From: Phytophthora sp. 'mugwort'
Lineage: Eukaryota > Oomycota > Peronosporomycetes > Peronosporales > Peronosporaceae
Length of the DNA stretch: 64,000 bases
NCBI GenBank assembly: GCA_033558025.1
Contig: JAUCEF010000003.1
Coordinates: 620,001-684,000 of the forward strand
Direction of reading: 5' to 3'
Under the pieces are notes generated by a model, which worked only from the letters and a program-made list of their open reading frames with translations, was not told the origin of the DNA and searched no databases. A program made the position numbers and the translations under genes. How positions within the stretch are numbered: position 1 is the first letter of the stretch; the number at the start of each line of letters is the position of its first letter. Of the stretch, positions 28,340-47,785 are shown piece by piece.

Positions 28340-28560
28340 AGGGCTAGCTCCACAGACTCTTAGGCCAGCACGGGCAGCACAAGTTTCATCGGCTCCTGGC
28401 CCTGTACGAGACCCACGGGCAGCACAAGCTCTGCGCGCACCATGCCCTTGTGATCCAGCACAGGCTTCTGGTCCAGCACGGGCTTCACGGGCTCCTGGTC
28501 CAGCACGGCCTTCAGGTCCAGCAAGGGCTCATGGCCCACCAGGGGCTCCAGCGCAGAAAA
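28340..28560 (+). repeat. imperfect short tandem repeats (CCAGCACGGGCTTC-like)
   Basis: Units of about 15-24 bp resembling GGTCCAGCACGGGCTTCACGG are repeated with variation. Translated, they give Ala/Gly/Pro-rich low complexity. No gene is called. Confidence 0.6.
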
Positions 28561-30311: not shown

Positions 30312-30399
30312 GTGGAATAATGTGGTTCTTAGTTAAATACTTCGAAGCAGTATTTTATTTCTTTCATCTTGATAAATAAAAAGTTAGTAATATAGTAAG

Positions 30400-30570
30400 A
30401 TGGCGTATTCACGTGAACAATACCTCGCTAACAAAGAGCGCATTAAAGCAGCATAGAAGCGGTATCAGCGCACACGCGACGCTCGCTTGTCGTATCAAAA
30501 AGTTTACGACGACAAGCATAGAAACCAGATTCTATCTCGCAAGCGTAAGCCCAAAACCGAATTTATTTAA
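30400..30570 (+). pseudogene. small basic protein of the Polinton
   Basis: ATG at 30400 opens a frame reading MAYSREQYLANKERIKAA, a TAG, then more Lys/Arg/Tyr-rich sequence to TAA 30568-30570. Basic N-x-E-x-I/K repeats of this type accompany virus-encoded nucleases and small DNA-binding proteins. The family was not identified. Confidence 0.45.
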
Positions 30571-30679
30571 GGCAAAGTCGAACCTAACAACGAAACCGAT
30601 CTTAATTAATTAATTATCGTTTTCTCAGATGAAAAGTCAAACCCAATATAACCGATGACTGAGGACTGATAACACGCTT

Positions 30680-31050
30680 AAAATTTTGACCGAAGCACTC
30701 GGAGACCTTTCCCAATACCATTCATCCGGGTGGTTTTGGCACTCGACAGAGGATAATGGGAAGTGGATGCCGATGGGTAAGACCCAAATATCCATGCCCA
30801 GCTTATCGACCGAGTGTAAATCCGAGATGCTACTGCAATACCTCAATCAAGCGGCACTTCCTTATTATCAATAAGAGCGAGAACCATCACTTCGTTGGCT
30901 CTGAATGTGTTAAGCTATTTGGTGGCCACTACAAAGTATGTCTCGGATGCCAACGTCGGTACCAAGGTAGTTATAAGTATTGCAAGAAATGTCGAGACCG
31001 TGGTCTAACATCATTTAGTGATGAGAAGCTGGGATTTGGAAAATATTAAA
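30680..31050 (+). pseudogene. small protein with C-terminal Cys-pair (zinc-ribbon-like)
   Basis: Two open pieces in different frames. The first is acidic and Trp-containing (GWFWHSTEDNGKWMP). The second ends with CLGCQRRYQGSYKYCKKC, two CxxC pairs suggesting a zinc ribbon, then KLGFGKY and TAA. No start codon is certain. Function unknown. Confidence 0.4.
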
Positions 31051-31403
31051 ATAGAAAGCCTATGTCACTATTAGGAGTGGATGACGGCTACATCCATTTC
31101 CTGTTTAAGTGCGACACCGTATCTGAAGACTCTAAACAGGATTAGCTCGCAATCTACTACCACAAACAGTTATTGGTATACCGGTAAGCATCACGACAAA
31201 TCCATCCAAATGGATTAAAGAATAACGCTGTTGGATATTATAACTGGCACAAACCTCCAACAAGCCATATGCCAAATATTTGAATTAATTAAATTCAGAT
31301 TTTTTTATATATTGGTATGATATAAAGTCGAACCTGATACAAGTTCCAATAATTATAAAGTCATATCTAAGAAGAAGAATATAACCAAGGGTATATAGGC
31401 AAT
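31051..31403 (+). other. short decayed ORF and AT-rich spacer
   Basis: ATG near 31062 opens a frame (MSLLGVDDGYIHFLFKCD) with a TAG near 31143 and a further stop near 31193. The rest is AT-rich and may hold the polymerase promoter. Nothing else was recognised. Confidence 0.35.
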
Positions 31404-34400
31404 ATGTTTGCATACGAACTCGAAGGATTAAAGAGATTAAATATCCAAGCTATCAAATGGGGTAGCAGCTACCGTGTTAACGTCGTGGTAGAACCGGTAA
31501 GATGGTTTATGTTAGCAACATTTCGCGCCCAATCAACCAGAGATTGGTAGCTAAGCAGTACAATGTTTCAATTGAAACCTTTGAGAAGCACTTGTCGCCT
31601 GACTACAAGGCTGATCCTAAGTACCGTTTTACAATGGTAATCACATGGAATCACACCTATATGAGGGTGTTGACTTTTCTGTTTTCTACGACAAGCTCGA
31701 GAACGTTCTTCCGACTCAGGCGAGCGGGATTAAGGTAAATATTGCTCTCGGGTACGAACTTGTAAGTAAGACCGATCCTGATGACACTCTCTACTTCTAT
31801 CCGAATTTTGCTAATAAGTATGTATTGAATAAGCCTGTCGCTGTCAATAGCAAGGCTGATATTCGAAAGAAGGTAATTTCGGAAATCCGGTCTATGGAGT
31901 TGGCTGACAAACTGAACTACCCCAGCTCTGGGTATATGCTCAAGGCGGTCACTGCATTCAAGATTATCATCTACCATCGCGACCATGCTCGCGGGGATAC
32001 CGAAGCTGTTAGCCCTAAGGTTATTCGCGAAAACAAGCAAAACAAAAGTAATCAACTTCCCTAAGACCAACAACAACTGCGCCTTCCACTGCATCGCCTG
32101 GCACACATTCCAGAGCGCTAAGAAGGATCCTCACATAATTCAGGCTCCGGTGAAGGAGGCATTCAAGCGGTACTGCTCTTTCAAGGGGGTTAAATATACG
32201 TTAAGCCTGATTAGAAGCTTCAAGCCTATTGACCTACTACAGCTCGATGAGGTTGAGGACTGCTTCCAACTTAGTATTAACGTATATAGCATGGATGTAG
32301 CTTCTGGAAATGTAGAATGCATTTGTAGATCGGAGAAGGAGTATGAAGCTAAGATATTCTATCGCACGAGAATCACGCTCTTTACATCTAGAACATCGAT
32401 ATGCTTCAGGCTAATATCAATGTCCTAAGTGTGAAATGGTTTTCGTCAGCGCTGAAAAGCTTAAAAAATCCACAAGAAGAATCAGTGTGAGCATGCGAAT
32501 ATTGAGAGCTTCCCCGCTGAGCCACTATCTACAAACAGCTCAGAACACGATACGATCACTGCTTACGAAGTATTCCATCAAGGATGCTGACCAGTACATC
32601 GACCACTTCATCGTATATGGCTTTGAGGCCATTCTTATGCCTGCCGCTACTCAACACGGGGACAATACTGTCTTCACGAACGAGCACATTCCGGTGTCTG
32701 TATCAGTAACTGATAGCTTATCCGAGAAGGTGCGTTGCTTTGTAAATGACGATCCAAAGGTGTTGCCTACGGATATGCTCAAATACATCGGTGATGTATC
32801 GGTGAAGATCCAGCAGTACAATGTCAATAAGTACAAGTCCGTTCTACAGAAAATCATCAATGCTCACGGTCTGACAGGTATCGAAATTCCAGGAGTCAAT
32901 CTTGGCAAGACCTACGAGATGTCTGATGTGGAGAGTTGGATTGGAGAAGGAAAGTATGGTAGTTTCTTTGATTTTCACAGCAACCTTGGCTTTGGTAAGC
33001 AAAATTCCGATTATGGAAAACTTGAACAGCAAACAGCAGCTTGATCATGTACCAGTATTCGGCTTTATTTCTGGTCGATACGATATCAACTTGATTAAGA
33101 GCGACTTGTTTGCCGTCATTGGTACTGACCACAACAAATCTGTCATCAAGAACCCCAGCTACATGTGCATTGCTACATCGGACATGAAAATGCTCGATAT
33201 TAGCAACTATGTACCAGCCGGTACCAGCTACGATAAGTATCTTACGGCATATCTCGGTGGATTCAAATGCGATGACAAAATTAGATGTGTCTGTGGTCTT
33301 GGCAAGGGTCTTTTCCCGTACGAGTACATCACTGCGTTCAATGTGCTAAACCAGACTACTATCCCACTTAAGCAGTTTTTGACGGCAAGCTCCGTGGAAC
33401 AAGCATCACCGGTGATGACTACGAACGAGTGATGTTCGTGTGGGATTACTACGACATGAAATCCATCAAGGACCTGCTGATCTGGTACAACAATCTCGAC
33501 GTAGTCCCCTTCATCAAAGCTATCAAGGCTCAGCGAGAACTTTTCAAGCGTTTCGATCATATATGTTCGCGGATGGTGTATCCCTACCTGGACTTCCCGA
33601 GAAGGTCATGTATCAGACCTGCTTCAATAATCTCCAATATCCGGATAAGAAAACTGCTAACGCATTCCAATTTCCAGCTAACCGCTTGGGTGGATACAAG
33701 AGTCAGGATGCTAAGGCAAAGCGAGAATTTGGAATGACAATTGGGCACTTGGATACATTGCTGCAAAACCAAAAGTATCTGTGTGGTCTATGCTACTTCC
33801 AGCTGACCGCTGATATCGCTTCAGCAGATCGTATCAACAAAAATCTTGGCCACATCGACGGACCATCTTGATCAGCTGCGTAAAAAGGTGCAACACCGCT
33901 CGTAAGGACATGTCTCTTAAGGGATTTCTGTATAAAAATTGCTTGAGTTCAACTCGGACAGACTGGTCTACTCGATCGGCAAGGAGGAGAAGGATATCTA
34001 CTCTAAGATGAAGGCCAACATTGCTAGAGGTCCATCTATTATCTTCAATCGCTACGCTACGCGTAATGAAACGAAGATTCGCGGTGGTAAGGTCTGTAAG
34101 AAAATTATCGGATACGACGCTAACGCTCTATACCTATGGGCTCTTGATAATGAGATGCCATGCGGTCGATTGACTACAGTTGAAGCTTATGATGGTATTA
34201 TCGATGACATAAAGGCAGACAAGGTATTCGTTTTTCTCGAGTGTGATACTCGTATTCCAGACCATCTAAGGACTACTTTAGTGAGATGACCACCCTTTTC
34301 AAGAATGTACTAATCGATTGTACAGACGATCATTGGTAAGCACATGTTCGATATACAACCAGTCCCGCACATCAAATCGTTCTAAGCCTGTTCGCAATTT

Positions 34401-35488
34401 AATTGGTAGCTACTTTGGTGAAAAGATTCTCATCTACACCCTTTTGCTCAAGCGGTATCTTTCTCACAGTATAGAGATCACCAATACCGACTGCTTTATC
34501 AAGGCCAGCTCTCACAAGGCTTTTAATACTTTTATGGAGGCTGTCTCAAACGCTCGACGAGAAGGTGATGTTGATAAGTCTAAGGCGATGATTGCCGAGA
34601 TGATGAAACTTGTAGGCAACAGTGCTTTCCGTCAATCTGGAATACATGAGCAAGCACAAAGAGGTTAAGTATGAGTCGAGGGACAAAGCTAGTAAGAGCA
34701 AGATTGAACACTTTACGTTCCATGGCCTCAAGGAGGACATGGGCAAGCACAAAAAGGTCAAGTACAAGTCGAGCAAAGACAAAGAAATTAAGAGCAAGAT
34801 TGAACACTTTACGTTCCATGGCCTCGAGGAGCTTAATGACGCCTGTGAAATCACCATGAAGAAACGGCGACTCAATAACAAGAACCCCATTCATTTGTCG
34901 ATTGCCATCTTTCAGCTCGCCAAGCTACGCATGATTTAGTTATACTATGACTGCATCGATTTCTACATTGACCGCTCTGACTTCTAGTATCAGGAAATGG
35001 ACACTGATTCGGCTTATATCGCTTTCAGCTGTAAAAAACCGTTTCAGGACTGTATTAAGCCTGAGTTGCGTGAGCACTTCCAGGAGCACAAATACAAGTG
35101 GTCCCCACGCGACTACAACACCGAGATGGCTAAGTTTGATCGTCGTACCCCTGGTCTATTCAAGGATGAATGGTCAGGTGATGCTATGGTCTCACTATCG
35201 AGTAAGAACTATATTTGCTATCTACCTGACGAATCTTACTAGGTCAAAGTTTCAGCAAAGGGTCTGCAGCAGGGTCGTGGTCGGAATGAACATGTCCTTA
35301 ACCCTGACGGATTTGAGACTATTGTACGGGACCGCATCACACTTCAGGGTACTAACAAGGGTTTTAGACTATCGAAAGAAACCAAGTATATCATCACCTA
35401 TACTCAAACAAAGAATGCCCTTTCATATTGCTACGATAAGCGACAGGTACTGTCGGACGGCATTTCTACGATTCCACTTAATATCTAA
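31404..35488 (+). pseudogene. protein-primed-type DNA polymerase B of the Polinton, decayed
   Basis: About 1,360 codons from ATG 31404 to TAA 35486-35488 in several frames. Order of parts: an N-terminal region with KTNNNCAFHCIAWHTF (~32065-32115) and a C2H2-like finger (CPKCEMVF, ~32420-32490). The exonuclease region follows with VYGFEAILMP (32613-32642; the catalytic Asp position is Gly) and FGFISGRYDINLIK (~33058-33100). A Cys/HNH-like insert comes next (YLCGLCYFQL... ADRINKNLGHIDG ... LISCV, ~33775-33890). Polymerase motif A is YDANALYLWAL (~34113), motif B KLVGNSAF (~34605) and motif C DTDSAY (35000-35017), with KGLQQGRG and TYTQTKNALSYCYDKR to the end. At least six frame changes plus TAG stops (for example near 34938 and 35240) disable it. 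It would replicate the element from a protein primer. Confidence 0.9.
34648..34833 (+). repeat. ~93-bp tandem duplication inside the polymerase
   Basis: Two adjacent copies run from AGCAAGCACAAAGAGGTTAAG (~34648) and GGCAAGCACAAAAAGGTCAAG (~34741), each ending in CACTTTACGTTCCATGGCCTC. They encode the repeated stretch SKIEHFTFHGL between motifs B and C. The copies differ at several positions, so the duplication is not recent. Confidence 0.8.
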
Positions 35489-35557
35489 GGGAGGTATATT
35501 AAGCTGATGCTCAAACTTCTAAGTCTGACCATTTGTTTTGCTGTAAAATATAGGATC

Positions 35558-36625
35558 ATGTCTTTTCAAGATCTACTATCAAAACTCTACTATGACCCCA
35601 AAACCCGGTTTTATTGGGGCCCAAGCTCTGTATCAGAAGGCGAAGGAGTTAGATCCTAAGATAACTCTCAAAATCGTAAAGGATTGTACGCGAGTCAGAC
35701 CGATATCCAAAGTATTCAGGAGCAGAAGAAGCGATTCGATGGCTTCAAAATTGCTTCACATAACCCCAACTCATGGCAAATGGATCTTGCATTTTGAGAG
35801 AAACGACCAATTTTGACTGCTATCAACATCAACTCAAGGTTGGGCTACGCAAAGCCCTTGTCAAACAAGACTGCCCCAACTGTTTTAGCGGCGCTTAAAG
35901 CGTTTGTTCGTCTCCACAAAGTTAATATCCTACAAGTGATAATGGTAGTGAGTTCATGAACTCACAGGCTCAAGAATTCTTCAAATCCAAGAAAATTGAG
36001 CACTACAACAGCCCGGTGATCACGGTACTATGGGAAAAATCGAGCGATTCAATAGAACGTTAAAGCAGAGACTAACTAAAATGTCTCCCAAGAGGATTAT
36101 GCAAAAGCTTATCGCCGATGTTATCGAAAACTACAATAGCACGTGTAATCGCTCGATTGGTATGACCACAAATGAGGCAAAAGGCAAAGTAATGGATGCG
36201 GATCTGAGTCATAATCAGGTGGAAACCGATAGAATTGAGAAGGAGTTTGAGGTCGGATCAAGCGTATTATACGGTCTCAAGAAGCAGACATTTGATAAAG
36301 AAGATGATCGATGGAGCAAAGCAGTCTATAAAATCGTTGGGATTGATGGCTTCCGAGTCCAAATCTGTTCAAAAAATGGTCATACCCTCTACAAGGCAAA
36401 ACGATCTTAAAATGTTAAAACAGAGACTACATATGCTACTATTAATCGAGGCGATATTCTTGAGGCGGAGAAGATCTTGGATCACAAGAAGATACGGTCT
36501 GGGAAGTACAAATAAGGTGGCTTGGTAATGAGCCTGACTCCTGGAAGCCACAAGATAATCTGCGCTTGATTAACAGGAATAGGAGATCAACTCTTGAAAA
36601 AGAGTATTGGAAGTCAAAGAGCTGA
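35558..36625 (+). pseudogene. retrovirus-like integrase with chromodomain (Polinton), decayed
   Basis: Starts at ATG 35558. Blocks: an N-terminal KLYYDPKTRFYWG-like segment, then KRFDGFKIASHNPNSWQMDLAF (~35735-35800; first Asp) and LGYAKPLSNKTAPTVLAALK (~35838-35900). SDNGSEFMNSQAQEFFKSK (~35937-35993) carries the second Asp, and GKIERFNRTLKQRL (~36031) the Glu, completing D,D-35-E. A C-terminal chromodomain follows: EAEKILDHKKIRSGKYK then RWLGNEPDSWKPQDNLRLI (~36450-36575). Frame changes at ~35610, ~35800, ~35930, ~36020 and ~36510 and a TAA at 36512-36514 disable it. Polinton integrases insert the element; the chromodomain is thought to bias target choice. Confidence 0.88.
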
Positions 36626-36820
36626 TGCTCAGACCTGCCAAAGCTGAGGGTCAGCGATCCTTGCGCCCCGGCGCTAAACAAAATGAGCCATAATTAGCTT
36701 GAAAATAATTTAGATGGAAACATCCTCCGTAAGCTTTGGCCCACATATAATAATTTTACTATTTAATAAGATTTGGAAAAAAATATCAGGTCATTATACA
36801 TAGACACTCATCTCGTAATA
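36626..36820. other. short spacer
   Basis: AT-rich, no gene recognised. Confidence 0.4.
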
Positions 36821-36934
36821 ATGTGCCCAAGTTGTGTAGAGAAAGAACGCGAGCTTGTGAAGCTTCGACGCAAGCTTATTCTTGATTCGACTTACTTCTT
36901 GGATTATCCAAGAAGTAAGTCGAATCAAGAATGA
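36821..36934 (+). pseudogene. small CxxC protein disrupted by a palindrome
   Basis: ATG 36821 starts MCPSCVEKERELVKLRRKL, a CxxC pair followed by a basic helix. The frame then enters the 55-bp palindrome at 36878-36932 and ends at TGA 36932-36934. After the palindrome another frame continues with a helix-like KNELLNLDA. This suggests the palindrome was inserted or generated within a small coiled-coil gene. Confidence 0.4.
36878..36932. repeat. perfect 27-bp inverted repeat with 1-nt centre
   Basis: Arms 36878-36904 (ATTCTTGATTCGACTTACTT...) and 36906-36932 are exact reverse complements separated by T at 36905. No mismatch was found on manual comparison. Confidence 0.92.
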
Positions 36935-37181
36935 GTTGTTGAACCTTGATGCAACTGCGAATTCCCCAAAACGGTAGTCAATCAAAACTATAAGCATGAA
37001 TTAGAAGCAATCTTTTGCGTCCCGTTCTATTGTGTCAAATACCGATATTTGGATCTTCTAAATGAGCGAAACCGCATCTGTCATACATATTTACTTTTCT
37101 GTCATGACTCAGTTCTGCCGAGCTACTGGTAGAGAATTTATGACTACTCCTTTTTTATGATTCGCAACCTATAGGATCAAT
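36935..37181. other. spacer inside the Polinton
   Basis: Interrupted frames only; nothing recognised. Confidence 0.35.
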
Positions 37182-37408
37182 ATGTTTCCAAATTTCGCAT
37201 CCCTCGCTCAGAGAGAGCAAAAACGGCAGGAGCTTCTTGAAAGAGCTAAGCGTTGCGTTCTCAAGCTAAAGCCAAGCGTGAAATGTACGAAGGCGCTTCG
37301 TGGGCAAGTGATATCGCGAATACTATTACTACAGTTGCAAAGGAACCAACTGACTCAACTCAGACTAACTCGACAATCGAGTCGTCTGAGCCCTTAAAGA
37401 ACGTCTGA
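37182..37408 (+). pseudogene. small hypothetical Polinton protein
   Basis: ATG 37182 opens MFPNFASLAQREQKRQELLE. After a one-base frame change near 37245 the sequence continues with REMYEGASWASDIANTITT and a Thr/Ser-rich tail to TGA 37406-37408. Length would be ~75 residues. Family not recognised. Confidence 0.45.
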
Positions 37409-37551
37409 ACGATGAATCCTCCCAGCCAAACCCTGAGTGATCACCTCCAACGATGGTAGATGCAGAAACTACTGCTAAGCCAAACACTATTTGATGCTGA
37501 ACACAAGCAAAGCCTTCGGTTGTCGAAGTTGGAATAAACAACATTCCCAAT

Positions 37552-39303
37552 ATGATTGATGCCGCTTCAGTATGGCAACGTATTGGATCAAAACGAAAAA
37601 GAGTCAATGCTTCGGAAGGCGATGTTGCAGATCGCACCAAGCAGAGACTTGAGAATAGCTTTCTCTTTGATAATTCAACTTCCACAGCGAACAATCAGCC
37701 TGATAGCAACCTCAAAATGTTCTGGACTATAAATAAAAATAAGGAACTGCTTGAATCCAATAGATTACGAAAGAAAATTGTTCCGATCCTTAAAGAAACA
37801 TCCAAATCATCTCCTCGCGATGAAATGGTTATGTATGGATCGATGGTAATTCAATTAGCGTCTTTGATAAGGATAGTAATCGACCAAAGCCGGCTATCAC
37901 TAAGAAGGTCAATTGGCAACTTGCGTTCCAATCATTTGTGAATATGACCAGAGCCAAAGGACTTAAGTTAGTTTTGATCGGTAAGGAAGCCAATGAAATT
38001 GTAGCAATTAAAAAAAAAATTACCCCGGGTGATGGGGAAGAACAACACGGAGTAAGGAGTGGAGTTGATGAAGATATGGATCAAAAGCTATCCAACGCAG
38101 ACAATGATGCTAAAAGGATCTTAACTGATTACTACACACAGCTTCATTCTAAGAGTATAAAAATCTCTTTCAGACTAAAACATGTGGTTGATAGAAAAGA
38201 TGGAGTTAAACCTCATCCATCATATTATTTTGGTGAGCCATCTGGCTCTAGCCCACTAAACATTAGAAATGTAGAACACAAGCAAGTATCTGGTGAAGCT
38301 TGGAAGGAGCTGGTCGGGAGTATCAGATGGATGGATACATTTATATCGCGCTTGATGGATTTGAGGATCTGGATAAATATCTCAGGAATGTTGAGTATCC
38401 ATTTCCATTAATGATGAAAAAGCAGCTAAACGGGTTGAGGAGAAGAAACTGAATCAGCTAAGGCACAAACATCCGATGAAAAATCTTGAAATATTGAATG
38501 ATGCGATCCTAAATTCTGCTCATGATATCAGACGACAGAGTATTGAGCCACATGATCATGATGCTAATTTGCAAAAGCTTCATGATGACTCTGAGGCAGC
38601 TTTTCAGGCGTATGGTGAGGCTCAGAAGCAACATGAACAAGCTAAAGAAGCTGTGAGGGGATCCAACTCTTAATCAGCAAGATCAGCCCTTAAAGCAGCG
38701 ACATCAGCTATGAAGGCTACAAAGGCTGTATTTCAAGCGAAGGCTACGAAATATTCTGACGCAAGAATGGCAACTGGTAGTGGCTTGAAGGGTCATGGTC
38801 TAAGAGGTGCGGGCGTAGCACCACGTGAAGGTGTTGTTCGTCGTAGTCGTACCTACAATCTCAACGAAATCCAGGGTTTAGCTACACCAAGTGCTTATGT
38901 CTATCGTCAGCTTGGAAGCAAGTACATCCGGATTCCAGATCTTGATGCTAAGCCACACGTGATTGTACAACCCAATCGAGGTAAATGCGGATCTAAACGT
39001 CAGATCAGTGATAGTCTCCAAGCCATGGTCAGAACCCTTGTCTATAAGAACCATATCGATCAAGCCGCTTACGATAAGCTCAGTATCCATGATAAAAAGC
39101 TGTTCAAAGAGATCCTTGCGATCACTCACCTCCAGTACAATTTCCATGATAAGCTAACGGACCCACTTGAGACTCTTCATGCTGAGTATGATAAGCTGAA
39201 AGGAGAGATGGAGTTAGGAAACGACAATCCGAGCATTATGAAGCAGCTCAAGCTGAGAGAGTGTATCTCTCACAGTAGATATGTACAGCAATCGGATGAT
39301 TGA
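37552..39303 (+). pseudogene. large coiled-coil minor protein of the Polinton, decayed
   Basis: ATG 37552. Frames change at ~37850 and ~38330. Read through, the pieces would give roughly 580 codons to TGA at 39301-39303. The middle contains NDEKAAKRVEEKKLNQ and a Gln/Ala/Glu-rich coiled coil (AYGEAQKQHEQAKEAV). A single in-frame TAA (38671-38673) separates it from the C-terminal part, which is in the same frame. That part has a Gly-rich stretch (GSGLKGHGLRGAG) and a tail with LKGEMELGNDNPSIMKQLK. A 'GNDNP' tail of this sort occurs in virion-associated proteins of Polintons and relatives as I recall them; a structural role is inferred. Confidence 0.55.
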
Positions 39304-39409
39304 TGATAAAGAGTTCAAATAAATTATCACCCGACCACTATAAACTATGAAGATCCACACTACTCTAATTATTTGGTGGGCTATTATAATATTCGGGGTA
39401 ATATAAACA

Positions 39410-39640
39410 ATGTTCTTCTTCAACTCCCGCATTATTTCAAGTTCAGGTGGTAGCTATGGTGATAACGCTGATCTCAACGCCGCCGAGCTTAAAGCCATTA
39501 TGAAGAATATGATCATTCATAATCGTTTCCAGAAGACAGAGGCAGCTGTATGGGCCACTGACCTCGACAAATCTATCAAGAAGGTGGATGCATCGACCCA
39601 AACAGAGGGTGGCCGTATATATATGGGCCTATCAACCTAA
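39410..39640 (+). CDS. small hypothetical Polinton protein, intact frame
   Basis: A 76-residue uninterrupted frame from ATG 39410. It starts MFFFNSRIISSSGGSYGD, followed by a helical segment (ELKAIMKNMIIHNRFQKTEA) and a Ser/Thr-rich end. The N-terminus could be hydrophobic enough to associate with membrane or capsid. No family recognised. It is one of the few uninterrupted frames in the element, though at this length that may be chance. Confidence 0.45.
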   Translation: MFFFNSRIISSSGGSYGDNADLNAAELKAIMKNMIIHNRFQKTEAAVWATDLDKSIKKVDASTQTEGGRIYMGLST

Positions 39641-39663
39641 GAAAAAAGACGGTAGAGACGTTG

Positions 39664-39903
39664 CTATCTAAGCAATGCCATTTCGCACGAGTTTGTTTCG
39701 CTATCCTCGATAACTGTTGATTTTTTGTCGCTAATATTAACCTCATGTATGGCAGACTCCCCATCGGGATTTTGGGTGGGTAGGAATACACTATTGCCAA
39801 GAACAATAATTTTGTCGGCCTGTATCATGGTCGATCCCACAATCTGGTGTGGTTCGTCAGAAGTTAAATTAGGTTTGAGCTCTTTACTTGGTTCGCAACC
39901 CAT
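39664..39903 (-). CDS. small hypothetical Polinton protein, intact frame
   Basis: A 79-residue frame from ATG 39901-39903 to TAG. It is acidic and polar (KELKPNLTSDEPHQIVG, EVNISDKKSTVIEDSET). It starts 10 bp after the stop of the gene at 39913-40181 on the same strand. No family recognised. Confidence 0.4.
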   Translation of the reverse strand: MGCEPSKELKPNLTSDEPHQIVGSTMIQADKIIVLGNSVFLPTQNPDGESAIHEVNISDKKSTVIEDSETNSCEMALLR

Positions 39904-39912
39904 CGTATATCA

Positions 39913-40181
39913 TTACCAAAGATATTTCTTAGAAAACCAGTCGGCGGTGTATTTGTTATCATCATCAATTGTACCATGACGTTTGTAGTATAGATCTCTT
40001 CGCTTCTTATCCTTCTGGCCATACTCGCGATATGCTTTAGTTTCGTACGATCTCGATAGTGTTCTTAAGGCTCACCACTCCGCTTAATAGCACCAACAGA
40101 TACAATTCTACCATCTGCAAACACGGCATCATAATTCTTACCTTTGTTAGTTGAAACGCGGAACGTATAAGCTGTACTCAT
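39913..40181 (-). pseudogene. small virus-type protein (DUF5754-like), frameshifted
   Basis: ATG 40179-40181 opens MSTAYTFRVSTNKGKNYDAV, then a frame change near 40065. The second part reads KAYREYGQKDKKRRDLYYKR followed by TADWFSKKYLW and TAA. A short beta-strand-like N-terminus, then a Lys/Arg-rich segment and a 'TA(D/G)(F/W)(F/Y)S' tail, is the pattern of small proteins shared by large DNA viruses and Polinton-like viruses. The DUF5754 assignment is from memory and needs a profile search. Confidence 0.5.
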
Positions 40182-40189
40182 GTTTATAC

Positions 40190-41784
40190 TTACTCGGAAA
40201 TAATTGATCGTAGTTCATCTATTTGCCTATTGAGATCCTCAATCTCACTCATGAGGTGTTGAATCATTTTCATGTTATAAGCGGCATTTCTCGAATAATC
40301 AACGTTGAGCCGCGTTTTAGCCGGTTCAAGCGCTGGGTCGTCTCCCCTCTTGGATATCATCGCGATAAAAGATATTGATTAGATCAGTTAGGTGAGCCGA
40401 TACGAGGTATTGCGCGATTAGACCCACCTCCTGTCCTTGACGATTCTCTGACTCGTTTCACTCGTATAACTTGATCTCGCATTGATCATCGAGCCGTTTT
40501 ACTCGATCAATGGAACATGATTGATGTTCCGCTTCAATCGTCGGTCGCTGGTCCTCGCCATCGCGGTACAAGCGATGTATCCTCCGAATATAGCCGCTAC
40601 AGAATATGTGATCGTACCAAGAGAGGATTCTGTAGCTTCGCTATCTGTTCTGAGGTGATACACTGTCGTCCCTCCTGCTCCGAATACAAAATTGTTGCTT
40701 CCCGGGACGTGCAAAGTAGCGAATGGTGTTGTCGTCCTATCCCGAGGCGACTTGTAGTCGTTAGGATCATCGCCGTCGCGTTATTGATTCCATATCTGAG
40801 GTCGTTGTTTGTGATATTTCCGATCCATGTCGCGTTGCTACTTGTGACATTAGTACCATTATGGACCTCTATTTGAAACTGGACGGGAGTAAGATTCGGT
40901 TCAGAAAAGGTAAGCATTCGAGTGTAAGAAACGTCCAGATAGTCAGATCCCGAACCAGTGGTCGAAAATACTCATTCGTAGGCGTAAAAGTAATACCGAG
41001 CTGTATGAGTGATCCTACTGACGTGATGTTGGCTTGATTGCCATAAGCCAGGAATCCATTTATTACTCCTCCACACGTGATATTTCTGTTGTTGATACAT
41101 TTGCTGTCGATATTGAACCAATACCACTAATGTCCCCTGTTGAACCAAGTACTAATGCCTTGCTATACCCTGCTGATCCAGCAACAACTCCTGATAACGT
41201 GTTTAGCTCACTCGCTGATGCTGTAATTCCCACCCCTCGTAGCTGAAGGGTAGTATGATTGATATTAAGAGTTGTTGCATTCATCATTTGCGTTCCTGTT
41301 TTGGATATTGTATCACAAGTCAGAGTTGGCGTTGCCATTGCGGTAGATCCAGTTATCGTACCCGAGCAAGTGAGGTTGCGAATGCCATTGAAGTCTTTTG
41401 TTGAGTTCAAAAGCACTGCTTGAAATATGCCAGCGGATCCCTGGATAATATTGATGTACATTGAATGATCGAAATTAACGCCTCCAAACTTCAGATTTGT
41501 CGTGTCGATTCCGGTTCCTCCAGTATTTAAGGTCAGACTGCTGCAGCTAAGCGTTCCGACAGCACTGATATTACCGCCTGTTCCAGGAACCAGCGCAACC
41601 CCAGAAGTTGCAATTCGTTGTGTAATTCCTGTCAGATAAGTTAAACGATAAGCATTCTTACTCAGATACGGGGTTTCCGCATATCGTAAGTCAGATAGGC
41701 ACTGGCGTTCAACGTCAGATAGAATGCAGGGTTATAAATAGGAGAGGTAAATATTGGCTGAGGGTATGAGAAACCAGAAGACAT
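40190..41784 (-). pseudogene. fibre-like protein with S74-type intramolecular chaperone tail
   Basis: ATG 41782-41784 opens MSSGFSYPQPIFTSPIYNPA. After frame changes the protein is Thr/Ser/Gly-rich with repeated short beta-type units (LNTLSGVVAGSAGYSKALVL, LVLGSTGDISGIGSI, SGTITGSTAMATPTL). The C-terminal part contains ARTSDRRLKRNINHV, then LYEWNESENRQGQEVGLIAQ and a helical end (MIQHLMSEIEDLNRQIDELR) to TAA. 'SDxRLKxxI' and 'G-(L/F)-I/V-AQ' mark the Peptidase_S74 endosialidase chaperone, which trimerises phage and algal-virus fibres and is then cleaved off. At least four frame changes and an in-frame stop are present. Confidence 0.75.
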
Positions 41785-41837
41785 CGTTGTTGTTTTTTTA
41801 CTCGAGCTATATAGATCGAGTGATTAAAGGCACGATT

Positions 41838-42514
41838 ATGAATGCTATTCCTGACTTCGGTGGTTCGCTACCGAAACAATACAAGTCAGCTGCTATGGGT
41901 GATATCCCAGCGCGTGACATTAAAAAGTTATAAAAAATGGTTATCCTTGGTCCCTCGCTCAGTGATAATAATAACCTCTGTATGTTCATCCTCAAGAACT
42001 CTCCTCACGTATTTGCTCATCTAACTATTATTGCCCGAATCCCCATCAAGAACTGTACGAGTATTTGTGCGATACGTTGGAAGACTTCATTATCTTCGCT
42101 GACCCAGATTCACCTCCAAGTGTTGATCAAGTACGTCATACACCATTAAACAAACCTGAGCTTGTTATCATAGATGACTACAGCAACGATAAGCTACTTC
42201 AGAAGAATATCTTCTCACATTACTTCACCAGGGGTCGCCACTTCAAATTGAGTACCTTATTCCTAAAACAAAGCTACTTTGTCGCCGATAAGATGATTCG
42301 CTTGAATTCAGAGTATGTAGCGATCCTAAAGGCTAATTCGAAGCGTGATTTGCAGATGGTTGGGAAGGACTTCAACATCAAGGGCGTTGATGATCGATCA
42401 ATCGTCTATTACTACAATAAAGCCACTGAGCGCAAAGGACAAATGTTGTTCATAGATTCCGTTAAAGGTCAAATCAGATACAATTTTGATAGACCAATCG
42501 CGATTGAAGACTAA
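41838..42514 (+). pseudogene. genome-packaging ATPase (FtsK/HerA type), decayed
   Basis: ATG 41838, MNAIPDFGGSLPKQYKSAAM, then an in-frame TAA (~41931) and in the same frame MVILGPSLSDNNNLCMFIL. The Walker A loop should read GPSxSGK, but Gly-Lys is replaced by Asp-Asn. After a frame change near 42045 the protein continues with LEDFIIFADPDSPPSVDQV, KPELVIIDDY (Walker B, ~42148-42175), FTRGRHFKLSTLFLKQSYF (sensor-like block, ~42228-42285) and a C-terminus at TAA 42512-42514. Polinton and NCLDV relatives use this ATPase to fill capsids. Confidence 0.85.
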
Positions 42515-42562
42515 CTCCAATTTATCGATCAGAAATATGGTTAGAATCATATAATAACCAAT

Positions 42563-43461
42563 ATGGCGAGCTTTTTGAAACTCGATAGTAATAATCTCGT
42601 TCAGGATGGATACAATTCAACTTGGAAATACTCATTCCCTGGTTCGGCTGCTGACTTCCGCGATGTAGTTTGCGGTGTTCAACGCATTAGCATGTACAAC
42701 GCCGAATACAATATCGATGCAGCTCAGTTCTGGAACAACAGTTTCAAAATCGAAGTACCTACGGGTGCTACAACGAGCATTGTAAGTGTTAACCTCGCGG
42801 ATGGTATTTACACGTACTTTGATACCAATCGATTTATTCAGACTGCTCTCGTCAATGCTGGAGCGTATTTGATCAATCCATCTGGGGAAAATGTATTCTA
42901 AATCCAATTATCAGAGATTAGCGTATATTATGCTGCTCAGTTTGATTTCAGTGCTACTCCAACCACTCTACCTACCGCTGGTGGTACCTGGCCAAGACCT
43001 GCTACTGGTTATACTCGACAGGAGGTTCTGGTCTACCTACGACTACACGTGTCCCTCGTCTAATTATCGACAACGATGCCTTTGGAAATGTAGTTGGACT
43101 GACTGCTGCAACATATCCATCTGCGCCTGCAACAGTTGCAAGTGCTCAGCAGTCAAACATCATTCCACAGATTCATCCTACTTCGTCCTACATCGTACGA
43201 TGGGATCTAATAACGAATGGATACGTCGCAAGTGGTGATATTCTGAGTGCATTCGATCGAGGTGATGCATCTGTTGGACAGTTGATCTTTTACAAGCCGA
43301 GTCAATATGCCTGGATGAACTGTCATAACGGTTCTCGCTCGACGATTACGATCAGTATCTACAACCAGAATGATCAGAAGGTTAAGTTTCGTGATACTTC
43401 AGTATCGATCATGCTTCTATTGAGGCCAAAAATGAGTTGCTTGATACTTATAATGATCTGA
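42563..43461 (+). pseudogene. minor capsid (penton-type) protein
   Basis: ATG 42563. The N-terminal 112 codons are intact: MASFLKLDSNNLVQDGYNST, with SMYNAEYNIDAAQFWNNSFK and IYTYFDTNRFIQTAL. After frame changes at ~42897 and ~43020 the C-terminal half continues with LIIDNDAFGNVVGLTAATYP, QPQIHPTSSYI-like and FYKPSQYAWM, ending in VSIMLLLRPK. The N-terminal 'S-(T/F)-K-Y-x-FPG' and the 'PTGATT' loop are features of the penton-type single-jelly-roll proteins of Polintons and adintoviruses. It would occupy the capsid vertices. Confidence 0.75.
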
Positions 43462-43997
43462 CTAACCAGTCTTGATTTTTTTTGTTCGATCATGTCGTGG
43501 ATTTTCATGGCCTTTACTCCATCGACCACCACATTCACATTCGAATGATTCCGCCTTCTTAGCTTTAATAGTCTCCTTGTTGGTTTCGCGGTACGTTTTG
43601 GTTCGCTGCGCGATTAAGTCTTTGTTTGCTGCTGCATATGTCTTAACCTTGGCACACCTATTTTCACGATCAAAGGCCGCTTTATCGGTAAGCTTTTTGA
43701 TTGCAAATGGTAAGTTCTTATTACAAGTTTTCAGTTTCTTGATCCAAAGCGTCTCATATGCCTCCAGATGAACAGGATCGATGACATCATATTCCTTAAT
43801 AAGAAAGCATCTAAATTGATAAACGCCGTGATCTCTCATAAACGGATAAATTACTGCAGCGCATGATCCTTTATGATTAAGCCATTTATTAAATACTGAT
43901 TTAGTTGTTGCCATCGATACTTGGCTTAATTGAACGAGTTTCCAACGCAGCAAAGGTCAGACTGGATATGTTGAATACGATAAATGTAGTCGATCAT
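43462..43997 (-). pseudogene. GIY-YIG-type endonuclease with C-terminal zinc finger
   Basis: ATG 43995-43997 starts MIDYIYRIQHI, the GIY-like strand, with CCVGNS close to the YVGS half of the motif. A frame change near 43940 leads into the open frame 43953-43462: TTKSVFNKWLNHKGSC, then YQFRCFLIKEYDVID and HLEAYETLWIKKLKTCN (conserved Glu helix). A Lys-rich N-K-(E/D) repeat follows, ending in CECGGRWSKGHENPRHDRTK. GIY-YIG plus basic repeat plus terminal finger is common in virus-encoded homing-type nucleases. Confidence 0.65.
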
Positions 43998-44046
43998 GGT
44001 GAGTGTATATATTATACAACTTTATCTATCAGAATAAGGTGGATGG

Positions 44047-44773
44047 TTATAATTGAAATGATCCAGCTACCATAGGCTTTTTCCTCATCGCACGGATCTT
44101 AGCCATGTGTGCCTTCGCTTCTGGAGATCCCTTAGCGAATTTCTTACCTCTCGGTTTGGGAAACACCTACTCCATATCGACACCGGACTTCGCCTCGAAT
44201 TGACTTGATCAAACTATCGTGTTCATGCTTAGTAGCCTTGCTCAGTAGGTACTTCTCACCACCATCAACTGCATCGCTTAGTACTCCTTTTCGCTTAGCG
44301 TAAGACAGAGCACGTTTGGCACCTTTCTTAACATCAGTCATAGTCAGACGACCTCCCTCCTTATCGCTGTCAGAGTCATAAACACCTATACCAGTCATGG
44401 AACGAATAGCGGCTCGCGCTGGAATAGCACCCTGATGAGCTCCGAGAGCGGTTGCGAGGGCTGGTACAGCGAACTCGGCAGCGCGAGACAGTAGTCCTGA
44501 ATCCTTAGCGAAATTAAACGCAGATTTGATACCTCCCCAGACCTTAGACCAAATCGATCCGCCTTGGGCTCGTTTATATCCCTCCTTGACCTCGTGTCGG
44601 GTGATGTCAAGACACACACCGCGACCTGCTTTTGCGTGCCTGGATAGCCTTCTCATAAGAAGCTGGACGAAGATGAATAACAGAGCCACTACCTTTAAGC
44701 TGCTTAGCTGGATGAAAGCTTTGGTGAGCTTCCGGGGTGGTACGTCGCTTGGAATATTTAGTTCGCGATACAT
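44047..44773 (-). pseudogene. core/pVI-like minor virion protein
   Basis: ATG 44771-44773, MYRELNIPSDVPPRKLTKAF. Two compensating frame changes lie around 44640-44720. Then GGSIWSKVWGGIKSAFNFAK, an Ala-rich amphipathic region (AAEFAVPALATALGAHQGAI), MTGIGV and a basic C-terminus after a frame change at ~44155 (RGKKFAKGSPEAKAHMAKIR, then RAMRKKP) to TAA. An amphipathic helix followed by a basic 'GSPEAKxxMAxLR' tail is typical of the small core proteins of Polinton-like viruses, likely binding DNA or membrane. Confidence 0.6.
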
Positions 44774-44797
44774 GTTGCTATATAACTTGAAACATAT

Positions 44798-45181
44798 TTA
44801 TCCAAGAATAGTCAAATTCAAATCTTTAAATCGATTTAATAGATTCATCTTATTGTTTTCTTTGCAATATAACCAAAGCATACACCATATTCTACAGTAA
44901 TCACCATACGTTCCTTAGAATCGCTTGGGATTGTATTTCCCGATCCCATACTTTGTTGGCGCTGCCTCACCCATTGAATCAAAGTACTCACCGTAATGAA
45001 CACACGTCCAGTGTCCTACATCAAGTTTAGGTGGTCTAAGTAGAATCAGATATGTACCTTTCTTCGGGAGTGGCTTTGTTATTTCACTCGACTCATAGAT
45101 ATCATCCCGATGCACATTAATTCGGTTTGCAAGTTGAATGAGATCATGATCGCTGGTGATTGGTTTAATGAGGTGAGACAT
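44798..45181 (-). pseudogene. adenovirus-type cysteine protease (capsid maturation), frameshifted
   Basis: ATG 45179-45181, MSHLIKPITSDHDLIQLANR. The catalytic His lies in DVGHWTCVHY (~45010), followed by EYFDSMGEAAPTKYG (catalytic acid). After a frame change near 44925 the strand reads YGDYCRIWCMLWLYCKENNK with the nucleophile Cys, then MNLLNRFKDLNLTIL and TAA. His-Asp/Glu-Cys in this order and the ~125-residue length fit the Ulp1/adenain-like proteases that mature Polinton and adintovirus capsids. All three catalytic residues survive, but in two frames. Confidence 0.82.
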
Positions 45182-45229
45182 AATATTTAATTTCCCCAAA
45201 AGTATACTAGAAACCATATAGATTCAACG

Positions 45230-46985
45230 ATGAGTGAAACTCAACTATCCGACCAGTATTTGTACCAGAGCTCCCTTAAAAGCGACCCGAAGATCAAGGT
45301 ATCTTTTCAAACGCGTCCACTTCGTTATCGATCTTAAGCAGGGGTTTTACCAGAATGGTGTTATTACGATCGATGCTACTGCTCAGCTGAACGGCTCCGA
45401 AGGCTTTGCTTGTCTCCGCGATGCATACATCATGCTCCCATACAAGGTATCAATGAAGAACGGTGCTACTGCTCAGGCTGCTGCCGTTAATCGTTTCTGT
45501 GCTACGCTGAAGTGTGACAACTGGAATGTTATTGATTCGATGTCGCTGGAGCTTAATGGCAAGACCATTGTTTCTATGGCCGATAACAAGCTGTTTTGGA
45601 ACAATGTCCGCGCTCAGACTGGCTACAGTCCTCAGTACGTCGAGAAGCATGATGCGGAGTCGTTCCTATTCCATGATGCTGCTCAGTCGGTGCTCTACAG
45701 CTCTGCTACCAGCTCAACGACTGGAGATGGCTATACGAACAACTACCGCTTTCACAGCTTCGTTTGCTACTACCGGACCCTCAGGTGGCGCATCCATCCC
45801 TAACGATGGTCTTGTGAAGCGTCTCTTGTCAAATACTCCTAACGCTGATTTTTCTGACTTTCCTACGTCGTGGCCTTCGGTAAGTGGAGCTGCTGCCTCT
45901 ACTACCATTGTTAACCAAACCGCCCGTGGTGCTTTCGTTGCTAGAGCTGCTACTGCTAACACGAGCATGGGTACGTGGAACTACATGCTCAAGATTAAGC
46001 TAACCGACCTCCATCCGATCTTCAAGGAGCTCGACCGCATGGCCAATCCTCAAATCCGCCTACGCTTCAGAATCAATCAGGATACTTCTACTATTGCTGT
46101 AGATGCTTCGAAAGGTATGTCGCTAACCAGTACTACTCTTGCGAGCGGTAATACTTGCCCCGTAGTGATTGCTGCTTCTTCCATCGGTAATCCCATGGCC
46201 GGCGTACTTGCTGCTTCTGCTGGATTCAGCATCTCGTGGGGTGCTGTAGTTAATGCCCTCGAACCTACGATTGATGGTACTTACATGCCTTTCACTACGG
46301 CTCGACTATATGTACCCTTTGTTCATCTCGAAAACCCTCAGGCTATTATCTCTAAGCCTGCCAAGAAGGTTCGATATAATGACTGCTGTGCTCAGTGGTT
46401 CTACCAGCGCGCTGGTACTGGAAAGAAATCGACTCATCATAATGCTGCGTTTGACCTCCAGCTATCTGCCTCCGTCAAGAATGCTAAGTACGTTAGTCTT
46501 CTTCCTTTTGCTGAGCAGACTGGTAATTTCGCTTCGGCTGCTGTCCAGGAATTCCGGAGTCCATTTGATTCGCCTCCTTGGACTCTCCACCCTGGTTCAT
46601 CGATTCGCAACTAAGTTCGCATTGGTTCGAGCCAAGTATTTGATATCAGTCATGGTTACGATTTCCAACACTTCCGCAACGAACTGGCTAAGATCTCTTC
46701 TATTAACGGTGATCTTACTCTTGAGCTGGTGAATGGTCTTCTTACTATCAGACGTGGTCGCTAACTAACCGCGTTCTTATCGCTGATGTTAATCGCCGAA
46801 CTGAGTGTGATGTCCCTCAAGCTATTCAAGTTCAGGGTGTGAATGCTGGCTGCCAGGGTACTAACATGCTTGTATTGGTTGTAAATGAGCAAGAGCTCTC
46901 CTACGATCGTCTAACGGGTGAGGTCTTGGAAATCTCAACGCATAGGTTGTCAATACCATTTATGCGACAAAAAAAATTTTTTTGA
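45230..46985 (+). pseudogene. major capsid protein (double jelly-roll), frameshifted
   Basis: ATG 45230 (MSETQLSDQYLYQSSLKSDP). After an early frame change at ~45300 the frame is open to ~45760: HFVIDLKQGFYQNGVITIDA, CLRDAYIMLPYKVSM, VIDSMSLELNGKTI. A second long open frame reaches 46614: GAFVARAATANTSMGTWNYM, LHPIFKELDRMANPQIRLRF and FTTARLYVPFVHLENPQ. A third piece reads RVLIADVNRRTECDVPQAIQ and GCQGTNMLVLVVNEQELSYD. The length (~580 codons) and the 'DLHPxFxELD' and 'GCQGTNxLVL' blocks match Polinton/adintovirus capsid proteins. Confidence 0.85.
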
Positions 46986-46989
46986 TCTC

Positions 46990-47291
46990 TTAGCTAAGTT
47001 CCTTGAGTAGCTTGGGGGACTTATCAATTACAAACTGACTCTTGCGTAGCCAATCGATGTAGTTACTGTCCATGCTACTGATCTGTTTGAGCGTCTTTCC
47101 CTTGTATTTACCCAGCTCATCAAGTAAGAGTTATCACTATTAAGAAACTTCGTAAGTAGAAATGTTTTAATATCATCACTGATGTTGAGGCTGGGTTGGT
47201 TGTACATCCATCGACAATAGCCAGCGTCGGAAGCATATACCTCCTCAATGGGCTTGTTCTTGTTTTTTCCAAAAGTGAGTTCGAACGACAT
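46990..47291 (-). pseudogene. ExoX-C-like small protein with two repeats, frameshifted
   Basis: ATG 47289-47291. The first unit reads MSFELTFGKNKNKPIEEVYA, then YCRWMYNQP. After a frame change at ~47125 the second reads GKYKGKTLKQISSMDSNYID, then WLRKS. The repeated 'FGK(Y/N)KxKxxEE(V/I)...Y(L/C)xW(L/M)' pattern is the C-terminal DNA-binding domain of exonuclease X-like proteins, often found as a stand-alone protein in DNA viruses. It ends convergently with the capsid gene. Confidence 0.6.
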
Positions 47292-47352
47292 GTTATTAGT
47301 TGGTGTGTATATATACATAGCCACTTAAATTATGAGAAAAAATAAATTAAAG

Positions 47353-47690
47353 GGATGTAAAAAAACTGCCGATGTAATGTTCTATTACATTTACCAAGTA
47401 CAGTTTGAATGTTGTCGTGCGAGCGGATCCGAAACTACCCTAAGATCCAAAGAACGCGTCCTCTCGCTCTCAGCTGGTCGAGAGGTTGCATCGTCGAAAT
47501 CAATTGATGTGCGTTCTCAGTGGTCGAGCGGTTCTAAACAACCCTAAGGTTCAAAGGACGTGTTTTTAGCTCTTAGGTGGTCGAGAGGTTGCGTCGTTAA
47601 AGTAGCACTTGGCTCGAAAGAATGCTCAGGGATTGTTCTCGCTTGTAAATTACGGAAAGTAAAAAAAACTGCCGGTGTAATGTTTGATGA
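47353..47690. repeat. subterminal repeats beside the Polinton
   Basis: A ~107-bp unit occurs about twice (from GAGCGGATCC at ~47419 and GAGCGGTTCT at ~47526). Each carries (A)ACTACCCTAAG/CAACCCTAAGG and TGGTCGAGAGGTTGC(A/G)TCGT. Outside them AAAAAACTGCC(G)(A/G)TGTAATGTT occurs at ~47360 and ~47663, about 303 bp apart. They may belong to the end of the element. Confidence 0.65.
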
Positions 47691-47785
47691 CATACAACTG
47701 GTGGTCGGTACTGGACGCAGTCCCCGGCCGCATTTGGATCATCCCTTCTTCCTAGTTAAAGAGCTCTCAATCTATTCCAAGCTCA

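Follow-up and report, generated by a model that had tools for sequence, protein, structure and literature searches.

The genome of Phytophthora sp. 'mugwort' harbours what we identify, with a probability of about 0.93, as the decayed endogenous remains of an oomycete DNA virus of the Polinton type, probably a member of the published Gossevirus/GKS1 group. The copy lies within a stretch of 64,000 nucleotides (hereafter the window; C3:620001-684000) of an 86.26 Mb, 154-contig assembly, and its identification draws on the gene set, the predicted capsid folds of intact relatives, the colinear copies elsewhere in the genome, the traces of past purifying selection and the present disablement of the genes. 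The element spans positions 30351..47699 of the window (+ strand, ~17.35 kb) and so reaches slightly beyond the 30400-47291 given by an earlier reading that was made from the letters alone (the sequence-only reading). Both edges are sharp by DNA homology to other genomic copies (left, 30351-30357; right, 47684-47699) and are accompanied by a GC step at ~30.3 and ~47.7 kb, the GC content in 1-kb windows being 0.40-0.47 between 30 and 48 kb, 0.487 just to the left and 0.513 just to the right.

From left to right, the element encodes a first open reading frame (ORF), a family B DNA polymerase (PolB), an integrase with a chromodomain, at least two broken genes, a fibre (- strand), a packaging ATPase, a penton protein, a GIY-YIG-like ORF (-), a 'core' ORF (-), a candidate cysteine protease (-), the major capsid protein (MCP) and an ExoX-like protein (-). 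Thirty pieces of the window were scanned with Pfam and PHROGs, and the raw pieces identified some genes only: matches to rve_3, Pox_A32, ExoX-like_C and PHROGs families were recovered, while most pieces had no telling match on their own and were hence identified through their relatives. The central claim of the sequence-only reading, a Polinton/Maverick element in an oomycete, is borne out; the PolB, integrase plus chromodomain, MCP, penton, ATPase and fibre regions all align to relatives.

That the element had been inactivated was also correctly seen. Frameshift-tolerant alignment to relatives (used for counting only) revealed 11 in-frame stops and 32 frameshifts over nine gene regions, distributed (stops/frameshifts) as PolB 4/15, integrase 2/5, fibre 1/4 (covering residues 163-576 of 589 of the relative), ATPase 1/1, penton 1/1, core 0/2 (its two comparisons overlap and enter the sum as one), protease 1/0, MCP 1/3 and ExoX 0/1. 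Judged from these alignments, the window copy is non-functional in its present state. Better-preserved relatives, which the earlier reading had considered possible, do occur in this genome: stop-free stretches of PolB were found at three places (C5:4195271, C5:2970082 and C8:443262), and MCP frames of 585 aa are open elsewhere.

Related copies are numerous. Genome searches (whose match counts are lower bounds and do not equal copies) returned at least 127 matches for MCP (111 of 417 candidates scored), 151 for the ATPase (150 of 224), 147 for the fibre (150 of 195) and 65 for PolB (46 of 600); the MCP matches amount to at least 107 places, separated by more than 2.5 kb and spread over 17 contigs, the one in the window among them. 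An order of five markers (left end, PolB, an oppositely oriented fibre, ATPase, MCP) is kept in at least 17 other copies (picked by eye, their marker order then checked computationally) on 11 contigs (C2, C4, C5, C7, C8, C9, C11, C12, C13, C14 and C18), with a left end-to-MCP distance of 14.1-17.0 kb versus 15.2 kb in the window; in the C13 copy an inner block is inverted. This recurrence bears on the possibility, raised by the sequence-only reading as its own refutation, that the element is an assembly chimera of unrelated pieces. The heavily broken genes and the differing nearest relatives of some blocks would fit such a chimera, but the same marker order on 11 contigs, together with element edges that recur in other copies, rules it out for all practical purposes. 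Between 1.38 and 2.76 Mb of C12, a cluster of related elements is 97.9-100% identical over 3.2-3.9 kb and includes units at a ~26.42 kb period (MCP matches at 2344083, 2370503, 2396918 and 2423338), with ATPase loci of the same period (L044, L047, L048 and L049) 99.97-100% identical; the cluster looks like a recent segmental duplication and not a fresh insertion, or it may represent an assembly duplication.

The PolB pseudogene (31502..35485, +) aligns with residues 1-1295 of 1295 of a P. cactorum relative (P0121; 80.9% identity, 1277 aligned residues). Its motifs YDANALYL (ORF 33936-34289), KLVGNSAF (ORF 34285-34668) and DTDSAY (ORF 34988-35242) are present in window ORFs, in agreement with the YDANALYL and DTDS noted earlier, and the DFE, YDANALYL, K..GN...G and DTDS motifs align across 22 PolB sequences. 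The exonuclease I motif reads DFE in 22 of 22 aligned relatives and GFE in the window (ORF 32415-33044). The domain evidence comes from relatives: one of them (P0155) matches DNA_pol_B_2 at 6.4e-9 and places in the genome also reach the cut-off, while hmmscan gave no DNA_pol_B_2 match for two others (L004 PolB and P0132). The layout of these relatives comprises a vOTU-like N-terminal region (read by eye only), a C2H2 finger, the exonuclease, an EndoVII/HNH insertion and the polymerase. Taken together, the domain match, the motifs and the full-length alignment assign the enzyme to the protein-primed kind of family B polymerases, protein priming itself being a prediction. An internal tandem duplication (34644..34831, +; two copies of ~96 nt) was detected by repeat analysis. 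As a side observation, PF20147, according to one of the models concerned the N-terminal domain of Crinkler effectors, is found in some gene models for PolB from P. sojae and P. lilii (P0133, P0140, P0150 and P0235), which could reflect fusion of the gene model with a neighbour or real proximity.

The adjoining rve integrase (35573..36622, +) has a D,D-35-E arrangement, whose D-35-E spacing was counted by eye, and a C-terminal chromodomain. The window piece matched rve_3 at 1.5e-5, slightly short of the Pfam cut-off, and the integrase of a relative (L004) matched rve at 3.7e-10; Pfam was silent on the chromodomain in the window piece itself, and the segment 36009-36622 aligns with relatives bearing PF00385 (chromodomain). 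Between the integrase and the next gene, an almost perfect 30-nt palindrome whose loop is 1 nt long (36875..36935) has inverted matches at C11:2214259 and C18:3235913, and seems to be kept in two other copies.

The structural module comprises, to begin with, an MCP gene (45230..46940, +) that is 87.5% identical to a relative (L012) and covers its residues 1-571 of 572. The structure predicted for an intact relative (P0009) matches the folds of Sputnik, Mavirus, PBCV-1, PRD1 and adenovirus capsid proteins (Sputnik and Mavirus being best by Foldseek), and marks the protein as a predicted double jelly-roll MCP. Comparison of the MCP profile with the PDB yielded 12 matches at E<=1, led by recombinant haemoglobin chains (9.5e-4) and including ribosomal S18, and these were taken as chance. 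The penton (minor capsid) gene (42563..43431, +; residues 1-290 of 291 of the relative) is represented by a model of a relative (P0241) with a pLDDT of 92.5 that matches the Mavirus penton and the adenovirus penton base, so that a minor capsid protein is predicted with a well-modelled fold. A putative A32-like packaging ATPase (41838..42511, +; residues 1-227 of 227 of the relative) is indicated by Pox_A32 (1.2e-4 in the window piece, just short of the cut-off, and 1.4e-8 in L044) and by phrog_2666 terminase (1e-5, window pieces). The candidate cysteine protease (44804..45223, -) covers residues 1-140 of 140 of a relative's ORF (L014; 72.1% identity) with a GHW...D...Q...CGP pattern; what stands of the adenain-like protease announced earlier is thus a conserved ORF with an adenain-like pattern read by eye, with no match in Pfam or PHROGs and none in a PDB sequence search.

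These capsid folds invite the idea of a virophage-like satellite that would depend on a giant virus for its replication and might protect its host from that virus: in Foldseek comparisons, Sputnik and Mavirus were the top matches of the MCP and penton models, and the published group has gene clusters in common with virophages (PMC7805220). We consider such a satellite unlikely, given that the element brings a PolB, an integrase and a fibre of its own, and that a similar fold is no proof of dependence (no helper virus was searched for).

The fibre pseudogene (40377..41784, -) consists of a conserved N-terminal tip, a divergent shaft and a C-terminal region aligned to an S74-bearing relative, and its window piece matched phrog_30158 at 1.7e-5. 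Selection on the structural module was assessed by Nei-Gojobori dN/dS on nine long-open MCP frames plus one window stretch and on seven ATPase frames plus one window stretch, a choice of frames that skews the sample toward young copies. At dS >=0.25, omega was 0.07-0.12 for MCP and 0.02-0.09 for the ATPase; the 11 MCP pairs with dS <0.02 (few changes, mostly one cluster) had omega of 0.61-1.85, and the sole close ATPase pair (dS 0.037) had 0.25. Since dN/dS is low between sub-lineages and near-identical copies look neutral, we read these values as a lineage that probably replicated under purifying selection and then drifted near-neutrally, decaying after integration.

A capsid-bearing, self-synthesising transposon, confined to the cell and never infectious, whose capsid genes serve an intracellular step, would account for the presence of rve integrase and PolB, the many copies per genome and the lack of a confirmed relative in IMG/VR. 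It is nonetheless an improbable explanation, because MCP and ATPase have been under strong purifying selection between lineages, a fibre that combines a conserved tip with a divergent shaft and an S74 domain is difficult to account for unless it attaches to host cells, and viral genomes with Gossevirus MCPs have been reported from lake metagenomes (PMC7805220).

Some parts of the element appear to have histories of their own. Compared with that of a relative (L075), the window fibre shows identities of 94% (residues 1-34), 32.5% (35-267) and 52-77% (336-533); across the genome, residues 15-71 of the window fibre piece show roughly 50-65% identity in many of the at least 147 matches and later parts roughly 29-55%, with about ten places exceeding this general pattern by longer and better matches. 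Two copies whose ATPases differ by a dN of only 0.021 (L043 and L055) have fibres (L075, which goes with L043, and L055) that are 51.6% identical. Similarly, block 37638-38754 is ~70-75% identical to copies on C12, C5, C2, C8 (440 kb), C13 and others, while the sisters that are best for the neighbouring blocks (C18:3.23 Mb, C3:3.27 Mb and C8:0.39 Mb) have no DNA match to it, one short piece of 68% identity on C3 aside (with 40 of 245 candidates scored); the C18 and C3 sisters hold 1.4-1.7 kb at its position. This pattern suggests that modules may have been exchanged or replaced at the fibre and at block 37638-38754. A bolder proposal, which we put forward tentatively and regard as rather doubtful as a whole, is that the ~100 copies form a recombining population and not a set of independent relics, in which sub-lineages swap the fibre shaft, block 37638-38754 and the left terminus, insert or persist without terminal inverted repeats, and include at least one lineage that recently replicated as a virus (on the grounds of open frames and purifying selection).

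Several observations weigh against the viral identification. Terminal inverted repeats are usual for Polintons; neither such repeats nor a target-site duplication were found for the window copy, and no inverted repeat joined the ends in four other copies with both ends compared. The confidence of the MCP model is moderate (mean pLDDT 70.7), and PolB had no useful PDB sequence match (none with the sequence, and with the profile three zinc-finger matches at 0.24 or worse). Scans of IMG/VR gave 1 pattern match with one MCP, 18 with the MCP alignment and 45 with the PolB alignment, none of which was confirmed, and no MCP match was found in a phage collection. Finally, the link to the Gossevirus MCP cluster PC_0014 runs via P. 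infestans homologues and not via the published profile.

The comparison of ends covered eight left-end and ten right-end stretches on both strands (an earlier set had seven of each). End-to-end matches at E<=1 measured 16-28 bp, and an 18-bp inverted match within one copy (L079/L085) fell outside both boundaries and was taken as chance; the conserved terminus was not seen in one right-end stretch (L093), so that the window copy and four others have both ends in the comparison. Two sub-lineages carry differing extra left sequence (type A at 6 places and type B with 12 matches in a genome search; about half of the type B places are not tied to any element). Where tied to an element, these sequences always sit to its left, oriented alike, and never at a right end, and we therefore regard them as extra left sequence of some sub-lineages and reject the left flank as the missing terminal repeat. 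The family may be one without terminal inverted repeats, or its true left terminus may lie farther out. A 2021 survey (PMC7805220) recorded such repeats in seven integrated elements (in a set of one fungal and ten oomycete elements), three of them with duplications of 5-7 bp. If true, the absence of these repeats and the exchange of modules would have implications for the integration of such elements and for the evolution of their host range.

For the working form of this virus, the gene content suggests the following cycle, a model that extends to particles and infection, to the integration reaction and to the role of each protein. The rve integrase would place the linear double-stranded genome of the virus in a host chromosome, the chromodomain perhaps steering the choice of site, and the element's own PolB (with its vOTU-like N-terminal region and inserted EndoVII/HNH domain) would copy the genome. 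Capsid, penton, protease and ATPase would build and fill icosahedral particles, and the fibre, with its self-chaperoning S74 tail, would bind the host surface.

The remaining ORFs are less telling. The first gene (30400..31049, +) has a weak zinc-ribbon-like stretch (Zn_ribbon_11, E 0.056, below the cut-off) and an ATG at 30400 that is kept in all six other left ends compared. Two or more broken genes occupy 37161..39640 (+), as judged from the ORF list and comparison with copies. The accessory nucleases of the sequence-only reading were partly recovered: the ExoX-like C-terminal domain protein (46996..47318, -) matched ExoX-like_C above the cut-off (2.1e-6), and the GIY-YIG-like ORF (43462..43956, -) is linked to the family via an L010 ORF (30% identity, 114 columns, E 4e-14; that ORF matches GIY-YIG at 2.2e-8), by a match that leaves the catalytic N-terminal part uncovered. 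The ORF it had named core protein (44056..44797, -) is conserved among relatives, while Pfam and PHROGs scans of the window piece and of relatives offered no match for the name. The right-end region (47343..47699) combines a conserved terminus with internal direct repeats (48-nt and 29-nt units, 47343-47693), and shifted self-like matches suggest that other right ends may have similar repeats. Within the window, there were no Rfam matches at gathering score and no tRNA. Ten ORFs flanking the element yielded a single, sub-threshold Pfam match (C1_1). Also outside the element, at 28351-28548, lie six copies of a 27-nt repeat, each spacing a multiple of 9 nt, which may belong to a repetitive coding part of a host gene.

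The make-up of the element is already in print. The Gossevirus group is on record from oomycetes and from Chrysophyceae, and four of its integrated oomycete elements combine protein-primed PolB (pPolB) with RVE (Bellas & Sommaruga 2021, PMC7805220), and up to 299 MCP copies were reported in a single oomycete genome (Bellas et al. 2023, PMC10120064). As oomycete elements of the same make-up were published in 2021 and 2023, the window copy is of a kind already known, and the oomycete-specific lineage of the sequence-only reading is not upheld as a novelty. The group spans oomycetes and chrysophytes; MCP relatives also appear in jgi, lgn and ena entries, so that oomycete specificity is not shown. 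The S74 fibre, found across Polinton-like viruses (PMC12220804), and the vOTU region and nuclease insertion of PolB, known from pPolBs with a vOTU domain and inserted homing endonucleases (PMC11071308), were likewise rejected as novelties. The MCP that had been missing from the P. infestans Polinton was placed in cluster PC_0014 by the same 2021 paper, and the homologues of the MCP studied here include proteins of P. infestans T30-4, among them PITG_18493 (80% identity). The window copy contributes a case with well-defined limits, located on large contigs, that shows the extent to which such viruses have filled an oomycete genome, and evidence that such elements evolved as working viruses and then decayed.

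Among known systems, animal Polintons/Mavericks and adintoviruses resemble the element in PolB, integrase, ATPase, two capsid proteins and protease (a candidate one in the window copy), and an adintovirus protein is also among the fold matches. The 120 homologues listed for each search included no animal protein, and the nearest named ones for MCP, PolB and penton came from Phytophthora. The element also carries a phage-like S74 fibre gene (animal Polintons and adintoviruses were not checked for one). Mavirus and Sputnik share the predicted MCP and penton folds, whereas identity over the aligned parts is ~7-11%. With Polinton-like viruses bearing S74 fibres (PMC12220804) it has in common Peptidase_S74 at the C-terminus of a long fibre protein, but the fibre of its relative L075 (a 589-residue stretch, Pfam, E<=0.1) showed no laminin, collagen or BppL module. 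The closest likeness is to Gossevirus/GKS1: while the window copy differs in that no terminal inverted repeat was found and each of nine aligned gene regions is broken, it agrees with the published elements (PMC7805220, PMC10120064) in the oomycete host, the many copies, insertions generally of 15-30 kb with a GC step at some, the pPolB and rve integrase present in some, the double jelly-roll MCP, the minor capsid protein and the ATPase, and, by way of its candidate ORF, the cysteine protease that many members have.
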